In this document: positions 10,685 to 24,439 of the stretch, in pieces
How the letters are laid out: every line of letters begins with the position of its first letter
How positions within the stretch are numbered: the first letter of the stretch is position 1
DNA from: a virus
DNA: 39,443 bases
Reading direction: 5' to 3' (one strand)
Virus record (IMG/VR): IMGVR_UViG_3300045257_000090
Coordinates: 1-39,443 of that record
Translations under genes and position numbers: made by a program
The notes under the pieces: generated by a model
Told to the model about the DNA's origin: nothing
The model's input: the letters and a program-made list of their open reading frames with translations, nothing else
The model's database searches: none

Positions 10685-11228
10685 TTGCGCGCCGCTTTGG
10701 CTGTGCATATCCCCAATGAATTGCTAACGTCTCCAGGCATTCTCTGAATCGCCTACTGAAATAATTGATTTCCCGAGCTCCGGAATATCCCCAACGGTAT
10801 GAGGCCTCAGATACAGAAAGCCCCTCTCCTAAGATTTGAAACACCAGTTTGCCGCCGTATGAGCCAAGCGCCTCGTAGGAAATCTGCAGCTCTTTGAATG
10901 CGTCAATCTGTCGATCGGTCAAAAAGTCACGCATCACGCCGCCATCAACCGCCTCTTTGGCCGGGTCGATCGCCTGGATAACCCCAATAGTCGAGCATTC
11001 ATGGAGCTTTTGCCACTTTCGGCCGGCCAGATATTGAGCGTCGTCCAACAGACCGCGCGAGTTCATGTCGCCTAATGGGTCATTCCGGATAGACCTCAAA
11101 ACCTCAATCTTTTCGCCATCTTTCGAATAAGGGTCGGCAACAATTACGACGGCAACCGAGGAATTAATCGGTAGGTCTGCCGAACGTCGATCGTGAACCT
11201 TTTCAGCAATAACCCTCTTGGCTTTCAT
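10680..11228 (-). CDS. DUF6456-like putative transcription regulator
   Basis: This 182-aa protein has a C-terminal half that reads as an HTH-like module: LSVSEASYRWGYSGAREINYFSR, then RFRECLETLAIHWG. The middle has LDDAQYLAGRKWQKLHE, which I associate with DUF6456-type proteins of Alphaproteobacteria. It overlaps the previous gene as ATGA. It is the last gene before the packaging transcript, the position where late activators or antiterminators often lie, so a late-gene regulator is a reasonable but untested inference. Confidence 0.5.
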   Translation of the reverse strand: MKAKRVIAEKVHDRRSADLPINSSVAVVIVADPYSKDGEKIEVLRSIRNDPLGDMNSRGLLDDAQYLAGRKWQKLHECSTIGVIQAIDPAKEAVDGGVMRDFLTDRQIDAFKELQISYEALGSYGGKLVFQILGEGLSVSEASYRWGYSGAREINYFSRRFRECLETLAIHWGYAQPKRRAT

Positions 11229-11866
11229 GCTGCCCCCTTTGATTTTTCTCCCAAAACCTTAAACCAACGCCCGTCCTCGGTTGCTTCCGGTTCATCGCCG
11301 GTAGCTTCTTGGTAATCCTCCGCATACGCCAGAAACTCCGTCGATCCTCGCTTCCAATAAACAAACCGCTTACAGGCAGAGATAGCTCCGTGTTTCGGTT
11401 TCCCCTTCTTCACGCCTTCACTCGCTACAACAATTTTATTTTCTTTCTCGGAAGGTCCTAGGTCCAAGGTACTAGGTACTAGGTTAAGATCAGTCGCGAC
11501 GACCTCCGAGGATTTCGCGAGGCTTCGCGAAGGTTCGAGAGGATCAGGCAAACGAGACTTAGAAGGATGGTCAATCTTCTGATGTTTCAACCAGTTATTG
11601 ATTTGCAGGTAGGTCGAGCCGTCAACAACGTAGCGGCGAACAAAATCATTCGCCTCTAATTCATCGAGCCAACCGCCTATCATGGCGCCGGCATCGTCAT
11701 CGTAGGGGTAGAGAAGGCTCGCGAGCATTCGCGAGGCGGCGCGAGTCTTTCCGGCGTCGTCAACAATTGTAAATAACTGCAAAAGCAATAATCGGGCGTC
11801 CCGGCCAATGCGGCCAATGCTTTCCGACTGCGGAAATTCCGGCTTGATCGTTCGAATGCGAGCCAC
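11225..11866 (-). CDS. Replisome-organiser-like replication protein
   Basis: This 213-aa protein starts at GTG 11866 behind GAGGGCG. Its start, MARIRTIKPEFPQSESIG, matches the N-terminal signature of many phage replication/winged-helix proteins (MARIRTIKPEFW). The N-terminal ~110 residues include LLLLQLFTIVDDAGKTRA and YLQINNWLKHQKIDHPSKSR, typical of the DNA-binding domain. The C-terminus (SACKRFVYWKRGSTEFLAYAEDY...) may contact a helicase loader. Its neighbour is the DnaA-like gene, so both probably act at the phage origin. Confidence 0.65.
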   Translation of the reverse strand: MARIRTIKPEFPQSESIGRIGRDARLLLLQLFTIVDDAGKTRAASRMLASLLYPYDDDAGAMIGGWLDELEANDFVRRYVVDGSTYLQINNWLKHQKIDHPSKSRLPDPLEPSRSLAKSSEVVATDLNLVPSTLDLGPSEKENKIVVASEGVKKGKPKHGAISACKRFVYWKRGSTEFLAYAEDYQEATGDEPEATEDGRWFKVLGEKSKGAA

Positions 11867-13682: not shown

Positions 13683-13904
13683 TCAAGCGGCCTCTGTCAT
13701 TCCGAGAATTGCGGAAGCCGGAAGGCCGGTTATCTCAACAAGCTTTTTGAGCCGTTCGCCGCGTGGTTGCCGCGCTCCCGTTTCATAGCGGGAGATCGCG
13801 GCGCCCGACGCGCCGATCAGGGCACCAAACGCAGCTTGCGAAAGGCCGCGTTCGATCCGGTATGCCTCAAGGGGGTGTTTTTCGATCATTCCCTTTATTG
13901 CCAT
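13683..13904 (-). CDS. Cro/CI-family HTH repressor (minus strand)
   Basis: This 73-aa protein (or 68 aa from ATG 13889) is almost entirely an XRE helix-turn-helix: MIEKHPLEAYRIERGLSQAA, then FGALIGASGAAISRYETGAR, then RLKKLVEITGLPASAIL. It lacks an oligomerisation or cleavage domain, so it is Cro-like by size. ATG 13904 lies inside operator O1 and has no Shine-Dalgarno; ATG 13889 coincides with the predicted transcription start of a TTGACC-N17-CAATAA promoter, so a leaderless mRNA is possible. It probably controls the lysis-lysogeny switch with the plus-strand repressor. Confidence 0.8.
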   Translation of the reverse strand: MAIKGMIEKHPLEAYRIERGLSQAAFGALIGASGAAISRYETGARQPRGERLKKLVEITGLPASAILGMTEAA

Positions 13905-13912
13905 TTTGGCAA
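13898..13912. promoter_or_regulatory. Operator O1 (TTGCCATTTTGGCAA)
   Basis: A 15-bp palindrome of the form TTGCC-N5-GGCAA, covering ATG 13904 of the minus-strand repressor. It lies between the -35 and -10 of a candidate minus-strand promoter and covers the -35 (TTGGCA) of a candidate plus-strand promoter. Confidence 0.75.
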
Positions 13913-13931
13913 TTAAAGGTCAACAGTTATT

Positions 13932-13946
13932 TTGCCGTATTGGCAA
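13932..13946. promoter_or_regulatory. Operator O2 (TTGCCGTATTGGCAA)
   Basis: A second palindrome, centred 34 bp from O1, with identical half-sites. Its last base is the A of ATG 13946 of the plus-strand repressor. The candidate plus-strand promoter TTGGCA-N16-TATTTT (13906-13933) would place the transcription start within it. Confidence 0.75.
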
Positions 13947-14302
13947 TGACAAAAGCCGTTATTTGCCAGATGCTTACCGCTATGGCACGCAAGGCCGTCC
14001 ACAGACCTAGGCAAAAAGCCCTATTTATTGGGTCTTGGATGGAGCTCAGGGGCGTCGATCGTCAGGCCATCTGCGATGCCTTGGACGTATCCGAGGGCGC
14101 CCTTTCCCGGTGGATAAACGGCCTACGGACGCCAAGGGCGGCCGAAATGCGCGCCCTTGAGGATTTCCTACAGATAGAGCCCGGCGACCTGTTCCGCGAC
14201 CCGGAAAAGGCCGCAGAATCGGGTCTATTGGCCGGCCTAGGCGCCGCGGAGCGGGACGAGGCCAAGCGGTTTATTGCCTTCCTCCACAGCCGCAAAAAAT
14301 AA
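13946..14302 (+). CDS. HTH repressor (plus strand), head of the plus-strand operon
   Basis: From ATG 13946 the product is 118 aa (later starts at 13970 and 13982 are in frame; none has a Shine-Dalgarno). The core is an HTH: WMELRGVDRQAICDALDVSE then GALSRWINGLRTPRAAEMRA, followed by LEDFLQIEPGDLF and a C-terminal helical extension AAERDEAKRFIAFLHS, which suits dimerisation. It is opposed to the smaller minus-strand HTH gene across O1/O2 and followed by O3/O4. It is likely the lysogeny repressor or its antagonist; which of the two genes is CI cannot be told from sequence. Confidence 0.75.
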   Translation: MTKAVICQMLTAMARKAVHRPRQKALFIGSWMELRGVDRQAICDALDVSEGALSRWINGLRTPRAAEMRALEDFLQIEPGDLFRDPEKAAESGLLAGLGAAERDEAKRFIAFLHSRKK

Positions 14303-14303
14303 T

Positions 14304-14318
14304 TTGCCAATTCGGCAA
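14304..14318. promoter_or_regulatory. Operator O3 (TTGCCAATTCGGCAA)
   Basis: Third copy of the TTGCC-N5-GGCAA palindrome, starting 2 bp after the stop of the plus-strand repressor. Confidence 0.75.
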
Positions 14319-14336
14319 TTTTTCACTTGACTGTAT

Positions 14337-14351
14337 TTGCCAATATGGCAA
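14337..14351. promoter_or_regulatory. Operator O4 (TTGCCAATATGGCAA)
   Basis: Fourth copy, centred 33 bp from O3. A TTGACT at 14327-14332, between O3 and O4, is a plausible -35, but I see no good -10. The pair probably represses the downstream plus-strand operon. Confidence 0.75.
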
Positions 14352-15292: not shown

Positions 15293-16012
15293 ATGCCTAA
15301 GACAAATCTAGCGATCCGCCGAGAGGAATTGGCGCCGGCCGCTGCCGACTATGTGCGGTTGGCGATAGAGCGCAATCTACCGCCCGAGATTTTCGCAAAG
15401 CTACTCGACAACGCCGAGCGGGTTGACGCGATCCGCGCGCGCAAAGACTTTGAAGCTGCGCTAACGGCCGCTAAGGCTGAAATGCCGCAAATCCTGAAAA
15501 ATCGAGAGGTGTCATTCGGCAACACCAACTATAAGCACGAGGATTTTGCCGGCCTCGCTGGCCAAGTTGATCCGGTTATTAGCAAGCACGGTCTGTCCTA
15601 TCGCTTCCGCACCAATAGCGACAAGGATGGGATAACGGTTACTTGCATCGTCTCCGGTCACGGGCACCATGAAGAAAATTCGCTTTGGGCGCCGCATGAC
15701 AAGTCTGGAAACAAGAACGCAATCCAGGCGATCGGTAGCGCGCAAACTTACCTACAGCGTTACACGCTCAAGGCCGCGCTTGGCCTTGCTGCATCGGCCG
15801 ACACAGACGCACGAGTAATTGAAGCGGAGCGAGTGCCAGACGAGACGATTACGCTTGCACAATTCAAAGAGCTCGAAACCCTCTGCGCGCAGAAGAAAAG
15901 AACAGTCAAAGCGCTCGCGACTGCGATGGGAGTGCAAACGATAGCGGAATTGCCAGCATCGAGATTGAGCGAAGCCAAGGGCATCATTTCCGACGCACAG
16001 GTGCCAGCATGA
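15293..16012 (+). CDS. erf: ERF-family single-strand annealing recombinase
   Basis: The protein is 239 aa from ATG 15293. It shows the ERF core: VRLAIERNLPPEIFAKLLDN, FEAALTAAKAEMPQILKNRE, HEDFAGLAGQVDPVISKHG, TCIVSGHGHHEENSLWAP and NAIQAIGSAQTYLQRYTLKA, then LGLAASADTDARV. ERF proteins anneal single strands during recombination and circularisation of phage DNA. The next gene (overlap ATGA) is a lambda-exonuclease-like nuclease, giving the common exonuclease-annealase pair. The C-terminal ~60 residues form a separate helical domain. Confidence 0.9.
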   Translation: MPKTNLAIRREELAPAAADYVRLAIERNLPPEIFAKLLDNAERVDAIRARKDFEAALTAAKAEMPQILKNREVSFGNTNYKHEDFAGLAGQVDPVISKHGLSYRFRTNSDKDGITVTCIVSGHGHHEENSLWAPHDKSGNKNAIQAIGSAQTYLQRYTLKAALGLAASADTDARVIEAERVPDETITLAQFKELETLCAQKKRTVKALATAMGVQTIAELPASRLSEAKGIISDAQVPA

Positions 16013-16626
16013 CCGCGCATATCATAGACTGCGAACAGGGAAGTCGGGAATGGCTGATTGCCCGCCTAGGTATCCCGACCGCTTCCGAGTTCTCGACCGT
16101 CATGGCCAAGGGTGAAGGCAAAACGCGCCGCACCTACATGCTCAAGTTGGCCGGCGAAATCATCACGCAAGAGCCAATGGAAAGCTACACGAACCCTCAC
16201 ATGGAGCGTGGAAAGTTGATGGAGGACGATGCGCGCAGCGCATACGCATTCATCAAGAATGCCGAACCGCAGCGCGTCGGGTTCATTCGCAACGGCGGCA
16301 AAGGGTGCAGTCCCGACTCGCTAATCGGTAAAAGCCGCGGCCTCGAAATTAAAACCGCGCTTCCGCATATCCAGATTGACCGTCTACTGAAAGACGAATT
16401 GCCAGCCGAACACAAAGCGCAGGTTCAGGGCAGTATGTGGGTCAGCGAGCGCGATGAATGGGATTTTGTGAGCTATTGGCCAAAGTTGCCGATGTTCATA
16501 AAACCCGTTTTCCGAGACGAAAAATATATCGCCAACCTCGCCAGCGAAGTCGATCGCTTCAATGACGAGCTAGTGCAGATCGTCGCGCAAATCCATCGCT
16601 ACGGCGACCTTGAGGCGGTGGCATGA
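16009..16626 (+). CDS. YqaJ/lambda-type exonuclease
   Basis: This 205-aa protein has the YqaJ pattern: QGSREWLIARLGIPTASEFS, MERGKLMEDDARSAYAF, CSPDSLIGKSRGLEIKTALP (with the Asp and Glu-Ile-Lys of the PD-(D/E)xK core) and HKAQVQGSMWVSERDEWDF. It resects double-stranded ends for the ERF annealase encoded just upstream. It overlaps both neighbours by 4 bp. Confidence 0.9.
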   Translation: MTAHIIDCEQGSREWLIARLGIPTASEFSTVMAKGEGKTRRTYMLKLAGEIITQEPMESYTNPHMERGKLMEDDARSAYAFIKNAEPQRVGFIRNGGKGCSPDSLIGKSRGLEIKTALPHIQIDRLLKDELPAEHKAQVQGSMWVSERDEWDFVSYWPKLPMFIKPVFRDEKYIANLASEVDRFNDELVQIVAQIHRYGDLEAVA

Positions 16627-18913: not shown

Positions 18914-19198
18914 ATGACCAAACCGCACGGCGTGGCATACGATTGGGAGCAAGACCCGACCGCAATTCGGGACGGTCTATTTGTTACCGATGCCGAGATA
19001 ATTCATCGTCTTGGCGTCCCCGTTAAACACGCCACGGATGCCCTGCGAGTCCTTGACCATGAATGCAAGCGCAACCGCTTCCCCCAGAAGCAGAAACTAT
19101 GGGGGGATAGGCGGTACTGGCCGGCGGTAAAACAGTGGTTAGACGCCAATAATGGGCTTAGAATCCCTTCAAACAGGAGGGAAGAAGATGCCGCCTAG
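18914..19198 (+). CDS. Excisionase-like / MerR-type HTH small protein
   Basis: This 94-aa protein contains FVTDAEIIHRLGVPVKHATD, then ALRVLDHECKRNRFPQKQKL and RRYWPAVKQWLDANNGLR, the layout of a small winged-HTH (helix, short wing, then a helix). It overlaps the start of the integrase gene by 11 bp and so probably controls direction of recombination. No direct match can be claimed. Confidence 0.55.
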   Translation: MTKPHGVAYDWEQDPTAIRDGLFVTDAEIIHRLGVPVKHATDALRVLDHECKRNRFPQKQKLWGDRRYWPAVKQWLDANNGLRIPSNRREEDAA

Positions 19199-20399
19199 AA
19201 TTGAGAATGCGCCAGGACTTGCATGGAAGCCGCGTAAAGCCGGATGGGAAGCCCGCTGGCAAGCACGTACCGATCTAGTCGAGCGCGGCTATAGGCCCAA
19301 GAGCTACAGGATTTGGCAAGGACAAGATCATCCCGATGAAATCGAAACGGCATACATCCAAAACCAATGCTCGTCCCTCCAATCAGAAATGCTGGTATGG
19401 GGACGAGGTGGCATTGCTATCGTGGATAGCTTCGATGGCACAGTTTCAGGACTTATTCGATGCTACCAGCACGACGAAGATACACCTTACCGAAAGCTCC
19501 GCTACCGCACTCGCAAATACTATCAATCGCTATGTAAGCGACTGGAAGATGACTTCGGCGAAAGGCAAATCGCGGAAATCAAAGCGCGCGGCTTAATCCA
19601 CTGGCATGAAAAGGTTGTTGAGAGTGGTCACATCGCAATGGCACACAGCGTCATGGGGATGCTGCGTATCCTGACGGGATTTGGTGCGACGATATTGGAG
19701 GATGCGGAATGCAACCGGTTGAGCCAGGTGTTGAGCAAGATGCGCTTCACGATGTCGAAGCCCCGCACTTCTGTCCTTACTGCGGAGCAGGCTGTAGCTA
19801 TTCGTGGTTCAGCTCACGCACTTGGGCGGCCGAGTGTTGCCTTGGCTCAAGCATTCCAATTCGATTGTATGTTCAGACAGAAAGACGTGATTGGGGAATG
19901 GGTACCGGTGTCAGAGCCGGGGTTATCAGACATTCTCGACGGAAATAACAAGTGGCTGCGCGGAATACGTTGGGAGGAAATAAATGGAGATTGGATTCTC
20001 ACCCACATCACTAGCAAGCGGCAGAAAGAGATTACGGTTGATCTCAAGCTCGCGCCTATGGTCATGGAGGAATTGGCGCATCGCCCGCGCAATTCTTATC
20101 CGGCGCGAGGTCCGGTTATTATATCCGATGTTGCCCTTCGACCTTGGTATGCTGTTGAGTTCCGCAAAACCTGGCGACGAGCAGCGGATAATGGCGGGAT
20201 ACCTAGGTGGGTTAGGAACATGGACAGCCGTGCCGGGGCTATTACTGAGGCCACCGAGTCTGGGGCCGAACTAGAGCATATCAAGCACGCAGCCACCCAC
20301 TCGGACATCGGAATGACGCAACGCTATGCGCGTGGCGCGACCGACAAAATCGAGGGTGTCATGCGCCAACGAGCGGAATACCGGAAGAACAAAGAGTGA
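19188..20399 (+). CDS. int: Tyrosine integrase
   Basis: From ATG 19188 (AGGAGGG 5-10 bp upstream) the product is 403 aa. The catalytic domain shows Arg230 (CMFRQKDVIG), a Lys-bearing ITSKRQKEI, Arg348 (MDSRAGAIT), His371 (ATHSDIG) and Tyr380 (QRYAR). The first residue of the usual HxxR box is Met345 instead of His. The N-terminus and core-binding domain occupy about residues 1-190. It integrates phage DNA at a host attachment site; the site could not be located from sequence. Confidence 0.9.
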   Translation: MPPRIENAPGLAWKPRKAGWEARWQARTDLVERGYRPKSYRIWQGQDHPDEIETAYIQNQCSSLQSEMLVWGRGGIAIVDSFDGTVSGLIRCYQHDEDTPYRKLRYRTRKYYQSLCKRLEDDFGERQIAEIKARGLIHWHEKVVESGHIAMAHSVMGMLRILTGFGATILEDAECNRLSQVLSKMRFTMSKPRTSVLTAEQAVAIRGSAHALGRPSVALAQAFQFDCMFRQKDVIGEWVPVSEPGLSDILDGNNKWLRGIRWEEINGDWILTHITSKRQKEITVDLKLAPMVMEELAHRPRNSYPARGPVIISDVALRPWYAVEFRKTWRRAADNGGIPRWVRNMDSRAGAITEATESGAELEHIKHAATHSDIGMTQRYARGATDKIEGVMRQRAEYRKNKE

Positions 20400-23479: not shown

Positions 23480-24439
23480 CTATACGGAGATCAAGTCTCC
23501 GCAGTAGTCGATATGTTTTTCGCCGTGAACGAGCGCGAGTTGAGGTTGCAAAAGTTTTCCGTCTTTGAATGTGAGGACACAAAAACCGGAGCGCCAGTTT
23601 TTTGGATTATCCTCGGTGTAGTTTACGAACGCCTTGTGTTGCGGGTCTGCAAGGCATCCGTCGTCAACGCCGTAACGTGTTCCGTTGTAATCTGTGAACG
23701 GCATCACCTTGGCGCTATGAAGGTGCGCGGTGACGATATGCTTGCCGCTCTTGATGACGTTGTTCCAAGGCGCGTGATCGCCACCCTTGAACCGATGCTT
23801 TATAACAACGTCGTCATTGATCCAGGTTGACCAGCACGGCGCCCATAGCGGGAAATGATCCCTAAGATGCAGTCCCGTTATCTTGGCGTATTCCGGCGCG
23901 GCGATCGCAAGCCGCTTTTCGAATCGGGCGTCGTGGTTGCCAAGCGTCCATATCTTTTGCGCGCGTCCAGAAGCTTTCTCAATATCGCCCAATACGTCTT
24001 GCGCCGCTTCGACCTCTTGCTGGACAGTCGGCCAACTCTCCCATCCGATCGGATCATGTTTTGATATTTGCGGAAAGTCAGTAACGTCGCCGTTGAGGAT
24101 AACTGCTTTGGGCTTTAATTCCTTTGCGAACTTGATGAAGCCGCGCATGGCCGTGGTCCGCGGTCCCGGCCAAATATGAGCGTCGGAACCAACGAGAACA
24201 GTGCCGTCTAATACTTCTAATTCAATGCGATGCGGGTATTGCTGCGGCCGTGTCGAGTGGTTGCCGATGCTGTCGGATGGCGCATGAATGCTGCGCTTGT
24301 ATTTGTTCTCAAGACTTTCGCGCCTGTCATAGACAGACCGCTTCGCGTGGCCGAGACGGCGCGCGAGCTCTAGCGGGCCATATTTCTCGTATGCAGTTAT
24401 AAAATCCTGGTCGCTGATTGTAGCGAGGGCGTTTGTCAA
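23480..24439 (-). CDS. Calcineurin-like metallophosphoesterase with N-terminal HTH-like region
   Basis: This 319-aa protein has the metallophosphoesterase motifs in order: GSDAHIW (D86, H88), LNGDVTDF (D118), LGNHDARF (167-174), then KHRFKGG and VTAHLHSAK. These bind two metals and hydrolyse phosphoesters. Residues 1-45 (LELARRLGHAKRSVYDRR) look like a small HTH. Such proteins are common in phages; possible substrates include DNA ends, RNA or nucleotides. Start at TTG 24439 is adjacent to the previous stop. Confidence 0.85.
   Translation of the reverse strand: MTNALATISDQDFITAYEKYGPLELARRLGHAKRSVYDRRESLENKYKRSIHAPSDSIGNHSTRPQQYPHRIELEVLDGTVLVGSDAHIWPGPRTTAMRGFIKFAKELKPKAVILNGDVTDFPQISKHDPIGWESWPTVQQEVEAAQDVLGDIEKASGRAQKIWTLGNHDARFEKRLAIAAPEYAKITGLHLRDHFPLWAPCWSTWINDDVVIKHRFKGGDHAPWNNVIKSGKHIVTAHLHSAKVMPFTDYNGTRYGVDDGCLADPQHKAFVNYTEDNPKNWRSGFCVLTFKDGKLLQPQLALVHGEKHIDYCGDLISV

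Follow-up and report, generated by a model that had tools for sequence, protein, structure and literature searches.

Gene content of the viral contig

The IMG/VR record IMGVR_UViG_3300045257_000090 is a 39.4-kb virus contig that includes no host sequence, and its entire length of 39,443 bases was analyzed (hereafter, the window). Because it carries genes for a portal protein, TerL, a major head protein, a replication initiator, an endolysin, Erf, a YqaJ exonuclease, and an integrase, the contig is, judged by gene content, a temperate tailed phage. The nearest matches of the portal protein are in the Pseudanabaena phages Pan3 (33% identity) and Pam5 (32%). A metallo-phosphoesterase gene (23480-24439, minus strand) is located near the endolysin gene. 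The region studied here contains two divergent genes for helix-turn-helix (HTH) proteins, referred to as cro and cI, with predicted paired operator sites (O1 to O4) on either side of cI. The genes of relevance are:

11225-11866, minus strand: replication initiation protein, on the leftward side, past cro
13683-13889, minus strand: Cro-like HTH_3 gene, 68 aa from the ATG at 13889 (73 aa if the ATG at 13904 is used)
13982-14302, plus strand: CI-like short repressor gene, 106 aa, HTH_3 domain and C-terminal helices
15170-16012, plus strand: single-strand annealing protein of the Erf type, rightward of O3/O4
16009-16626, plus strand: YqaJ-type exonuclease, on the rightward side
19152-20399, plus strand: integrase, on the rightward side

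Leftward of the O2/O1 pair there are thus cro, the replication genes, and the packaging genes (TerL, portal), and rightward of O3/O4 there are the genes for Erf, the YqaJ exonuclease, and the integrase. In profile searches, the Cro-like and the CI-like proteins both matched HTH_3 (8.6e-12 and 2.5e-07, respectively), with scores of 45.3 and 31.1 bits that exceed the curated cut-off of 23 for PF01381. The profile search of the 106-aa repressor gave no match to the S24 peptidase domain. Its AF2 model consists of an HTH and a C-terminal helical part, and the nearest folds were SinR and the DNA-binding domain of P22 c2. A sequence-only search with this repressor retrieved a LexA-like HTH from Eubacterium, and a single-protein search revealed no confirmed relatives in viral contigs. 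Sister immunity regions were sought via relatives of TerL (82% and lower): the contig with the closest TerL relative, L165, starts 2.6 kb from TerL, and the others checked contained no comparable HTH pair.

Predicted operator sites and promoter boxes around the repressor gene

The window contains only four exact TTGCC-N5-GGCAA sites, which start at 13898, 13932, 14304, and 14337. The mean number of exact sites in 100 dinucleotide shuffles was 0.12, and none of the shuffles reached four. When up to two mismatches were permitted, the motif was about as frequent across the window as chance predicts (27 matches, compared with 24 expected). Start to start, O1 and O2 are 34 bp apart, O3 and O4 are 33 bp apart, and O2 and O3 are separated by 372 bp. 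The predicted regulatory elements are:

13898-13912, minus strand: O1 (OR1-like), exact operator TTGCCAAAATGGCAA, in the leftward promoter, where it covers the -35/-10 spacer
13906-13933, plus strand: TTGGCA-16-TATTTT, a possible PRM-like promoter of cI by consensus match only, which overlaps O1 and touches O2
13919-13923, minus strand: TTGAC, flanked by O2 and O1, -35 box of the PR-like early promoter that faces left toward cro
13932-13946, minus strand: O2 (OR2-like), exact operator TTGCCAATACGGCAA, upstream of the leftward -35 box
13974-13988, plus strand: TTACCGCTATGGCAC, OR3-like site with two mismatches at a distance of 42 bp from O2, the weak third operator of OR
14304-14318, plus strand: O3 (OL2-like), exact operator, immediately 3' of the cI stop codon and upstream of the PL-like -35 box
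14327-14331, plus strand: TTGAC (CTTGAC), flanked by O3 and O4, -35 box of the PL-like early promoter that faces right
14337-14351, plus strand: O4 (OL1-like), exact operator, in the rightward promoter, where it covers the -35/-10 spacer

The first-pass annotation had reported four operators with perfect half-sites at these positions, in pairs 34 and 33 bp apart, and both the sites and, by start-to-start measurement, the spacings were confirmed. It had overlooked the -35 boxes, the outward orientation of the pairs, and a weaker site at 13974-13988. This site overlaps the cI start codon (ATG at 13982), and the chance of finding an equally good match at that place is about 0.003; if it is included, the number of predicted operator sites is five, not four. 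The annotation had also placed O1/O2 between the divergent HTH genes and O3/O4 after the repressor gene. This placement holds, with the qualification that the longest possible start of cro, the ATG at 13904, is inside O1. Since the relatives of the Cro-like protein begin at the residue equivalent to the ATG at 13889, O1 is most likely upstream of cro and outside its coding region.

Both pairs have the form site-N8-TTGAC-N5/6-site, in which TTGAC is found 8 bp past the first site and 5 to 6 bp before the second. The O2>O1 module faces left and the O3>O4 module faces right, both away from the repressor gene, and both clusters overlap predicted promoters directed away from cI. In many other records the -10 element is recognizable (AATATT, AATAAT); in the window it is of mediocre quality at O1 and poor at O4 (CAAGGT/AAGGTG). 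The box CTTGAC is a feature of alphaproteobacterial vegetative promoters, with which the C that precedes TTGAC in 26 of 42 distinct modules would fit. The sites within a pair are 3.1 to 3.2 helical turns apart, a pitch that would permit contact between dimers; cooperative binding is plausible. Across records, the pair spacing ranges from 31 to 36 bp, as is expected if the promoter, and not a rigid protein contact, sets the spacing.

O3 directly follows the cI stop codon, is itself followed by TTTTT, and was picked by a terminator scan, and we therefore considered that O3, and perhaps O4, might be terminator hairpins after the repressor gene. The predicted stems are, however, weak (about -5.5 kcal/mol), there is no T run at O4, near-identical palindromes are present in the divergent promoter region, and other records also conserve the -35 box that separates O3 from O4. 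O3 might do both jobs. A terminator function in place of an operator function is thus extremely unlikely.

Recurrence of the module in other viral records

A search of 2.9 million viral contigs for pairs of exact TTGCC-N5-GGCAA sites at a start-to-start distance of 25 to 45 bp retrieved 43 contigs. Among the 43 scored, the window included, the spacing was 33 to 34 bp in 24, and an HTH gene was present within 700 bp in 30. TTGAC occupied a fixed place between the sites in 25 of the 43 contigs, mostly 7 to 9 bp after the first and 4 to 7 bp before the second site. The position of TTGAC is an independent test because this box was not part of the search, and, by a rough estimate, chance would place it there in a few percent of the pairs at most. 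All sequence examined contained 51 site-TTGAC-site modules, compared with none in the reversed sequence. In each of the 18 records with two modules, about 13 of which are independent according to our grouping (many of the records compared being related), the modules face outward and enclose an HTH repressor gene.

The position of the additional weak site was also recurrent. A third, weaker site 42 to 45 bp upstream was present in 15 of 21 cro-facing modules, compared with none of the 23 far-side (PL) modules (Fisher p 2.4e-7, a value inflated by the relatedness of the records). By our count, it occurs on the cro side in at least six separate groups, including L021, which was classed as undecided, and it is a perfect site in L037. 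Repressors that bear an S24 domain are associated with the same operators in L007, L018, L033, and L039. No S24 domain was detected in the repressors of the window, L021, L026 (with L008 as its near-twin), L037, and L046, which follow the same plan. Two carriers have named hosts, Rhizobium oryziradicis for L118 and Sphingomonas trueperi for L120. At least some of the temperate phages with this module are found in Alphaproteobacteria.

The distance between the two modules has no fixed value, being 357 bp in the window and 366 to 1790 bp in the other two-module records. This range of 357 to 1790 bp over 18 records argues against the idea that the pairs mainly hold a DNA loop round the repressor gene, with repressor tetramers bridging O1/O2 and O3/O4 in the manner of lambda CI. 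Lambda CI forms tetramers and octamers via its C-terminal peptidase-fold domain, whereas the repressor of the window is without such a domain; moreover, two outward promoters, each with its -35 box between two sites, already account for the pairing. In favor of a loop, two matching pairs flank the repressor gene, the repressor shows a weak structural match to 5d4z, a Salmonella temperate phage repressor, and there are precedents in lambda CI, which loops 2.3 kb between OL and OR (PMC5880393), and in the short phage repressor SPC32H Rep, which binds DNA as a tetramer (PMC9638917). Looping between the operator pairs, which the first-pass annotation had raised alongside cooperative binding, is possible, but it is not needed to explain the pairing, and we consider it rather unlikely that it is their main role.

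Two variations in site arrangement were observed. In L009, L016, L022, and L039, an extra cro-side site is located 24 to 26 bp upstream of the module, and not at 42 to 45 bp; this distance, near the pitch of lambda, forms a second class of spacing. In L024 (8381-8463), three sites at a 34-bp pitch form two overlapping outward modules, which are flanked on one side by a Cro-like gene and enclose no CI gene; this may represent a collapsed or alternative switch.

Occurrence of the motif outside phages

Three bacterial genomes with related prophage-like loci contain 12 to 37 single sites per 4.6 to 5.5 Mb, corresponding to about 1 site per 140 to 380 kb, compared with four sites in the 39-kb window. 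The full module is present once in each of these genomes, only at the prophage-like locus. The first-pass annotation had named an equal frequency of the motif elsewhere as an argument against its own reading; with these three genomes, which have related sites, as stand-ins, the motif proved to be rarer. In a class-wide sample of 385 genomes, the module was found only in the centre genome, and because no other genome matched, the module is, on this sampling, uncommon outside phages.

These data bear on the alternative that the sites are used only by the product of the Cro-like minus-strand gene or by a host regulator, and that the plus-strand gene does not encode the lysogeny repressor. Single sites in the three host-like genomes are 3 to 12 times commoner than the reversed pattern, a ratio without correction for composition or palindromy, which speaks for this alternative. 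So does the diversity of the recognition helices among the short repressors that share the TTGCC-N5-GGCAA operator; these helices do not point to one protein as the reader of the motif. Against this alternative, the outward modules always enclose a gene at the cI position, the records with long S24-type repressors share the layout, and only 1 of the 385 genomes of the class, the centre genome, has the module. We consider this alternative highly unlikely, whereas the identification of the sites as predicted operators for the divergent HTH pair is strongly supported.

The genome-wide scan for paired sites gave mostly scattered spacings, together with the phage-like cases L118 and L120 and a separate Marinomonas group at 44 bp. 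Because of this scatter, paired sites outside phages appear to reflect largely chance or other systems. In nine loci (L097, L099, L105, L107, L114, L126, L147, L157, and L161), several of them in named Marinomonas species, TTGCC-N5-GGCAA pairs 44 to 45 bp apart without a TTGAC module adjoin a gene for an HTH protein of 132 to 157 aa, probably a separate regulator. In L084 and L125 (Porphyromonadaceae/Dysgonamonadaceae), several pairs occur in a row with regular spacing, and these arrays are likely a simple repeat unrelated to phage operators.

Comparison with known switches and proposed mechanism

The layout of the window is close to that of lambda, in which the repressor gene is also located between two operator clusters, one between the divergent cI and cro genes and the second (OL) on the far side of cI. 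Both have outward promoters, predicted ones in the window, with -35 boxes among the operators, a weak third OR site toward cI, replication genes on the cro side, and recombination and integrase genes on the other side. There are also differences. Lambda has three operators in both OR and OL, whereas the window has two exact sites and one weak site in OR, the latter over the cI start codon, and two sites in OL. Neighboring OR sites of lambda are about 24 bp apart, compared with 33 to 34 bp in the window, an increase of roughly one helical turn that would leave the sites facing in much the same way. The clusters are separated by 2.3 kb in lambda and 0.4 kb in the window, and the window repressor, of 106 aa, is without the autocleaving S24/LexA-type domain. 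A lambda-type switch thus appears to be kept in its logic and order, with differences in spacing, site count, and repressor type.

Individual features of this plan are known from other phages. Phage 933W has a lambda-type CI with a different operator sequence, and the operators of phage 16-3 are 434-like (ACAA-N-TTGT). The Shiga-toxin phage 933W has three OR sites and no OL3 (PMC5977221), a three-versus-two pattern that resembles OR and OL of the window. In the alphaproteobacterial temperate Rhizobium phage 16-3, PL and PR are under one C repressor (PMC3694467), as in the plan proposed for the window. SPC32H Rep, which acts as a dimer and tetramer (PMC9638917), and P2 C, of 99 residues, are small and without a peptidase domain, and the likeness to the window repressor considered here is one of size and domain; P2 C differs in that it does not bind palindromic DNA (PMC4752584), whereas the window sites are palindromic. 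Literature searches, the coverage of which ended short of the primary papers on phage 16-3, the most evident precedent, retrieved neither the operator strings nor this arrangement, and a search with both half-sites returned only a paper on plasmid replication.

We conclude that, in this temperate, podophage-like virus, the region very probably controls immunity, and with it the choice between lysis and lysogeny, in the style of lambda. The sites, the -35 boxes, their orientation, the gene order, and the recurrence in other records are directly visible, and from these we infer which protein binds which site, repression, autoregulation, and cooperativity. The 106-aa HTH protein would be the prophage repressor, a dimer of which would bind the TTGCC-N5-GGCAA palindromes. 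O1 and O2, together with the weak third site, would serve as OR and silence the early promoter that reads leftward into cro, replication, and onward genes, and O3 and O4 would serve as OL and silence the one that reads rightward into the genes for recombination and integration. Within both pairs, the upstream site would lie just behind the -35 box and the downstream site over the stretch from this box to the expected -10 element; because of the latter, repressor and RNA polymerase would be mutually exclusive. The 68-aa Cro-like protein would presumably bind these sites too, but with another preference among them, and turn cI down at the onset of lysis, and the weak third site would let the repressor or Cro limit cI expression.

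The same plan is observed with other operator letters in the Bradyrhizobium phage ppBjS10J-1 and in Pam5. Like the window, ppBjS10J-1 has the order Cro-like (minus), CI-like (plus), ERF, and YqaJ, with palindromes on both sides of cI and a TTGCA-type box between them; it differs in its operator, CTACC-N5-GGTAG, and in an OL pair 45 bp apart. Pam5, with its related portal (32%), has divergent short C repressors, a pair 32 bp apart with TTGCA between the sites downstream of cI, and TTGACA on the cro side; it differs in its operator, TTGCG-N5-CGCAA, and on the cro side, where the partner site is only a weak one. On balance, we favor the view that a single module frame (site-N8-TTGAC-N5-site, a 33- to 34-bp pitch, outward pairs round the repressor gene, and, at the start of cI, an overlapping weak third site) is common to many temperate phages, and that the operator letters and the repressor type (S24-cleavable or short and non-cleavable) are exchanged, so that immunity specificity and induction mode would evolve inside a fixed promoter frame. 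The module could then serve as a signature by which the immunity regions and operator letters of poorly studied temperate phages are read from sequence alone, and shared operator letters would predict prophages that exclude each other. A lambda plan that is kept without an autocleaving repressor domain also raises the question of how prophages with short repressors are induced.

A gene for the cell-cycle regulator GcrA, which is typical of Alphaproteobacteria, is present near the immunity region of Pam5 (L249, 1607-2101) and is unexpected for a cyanobacterial phage.
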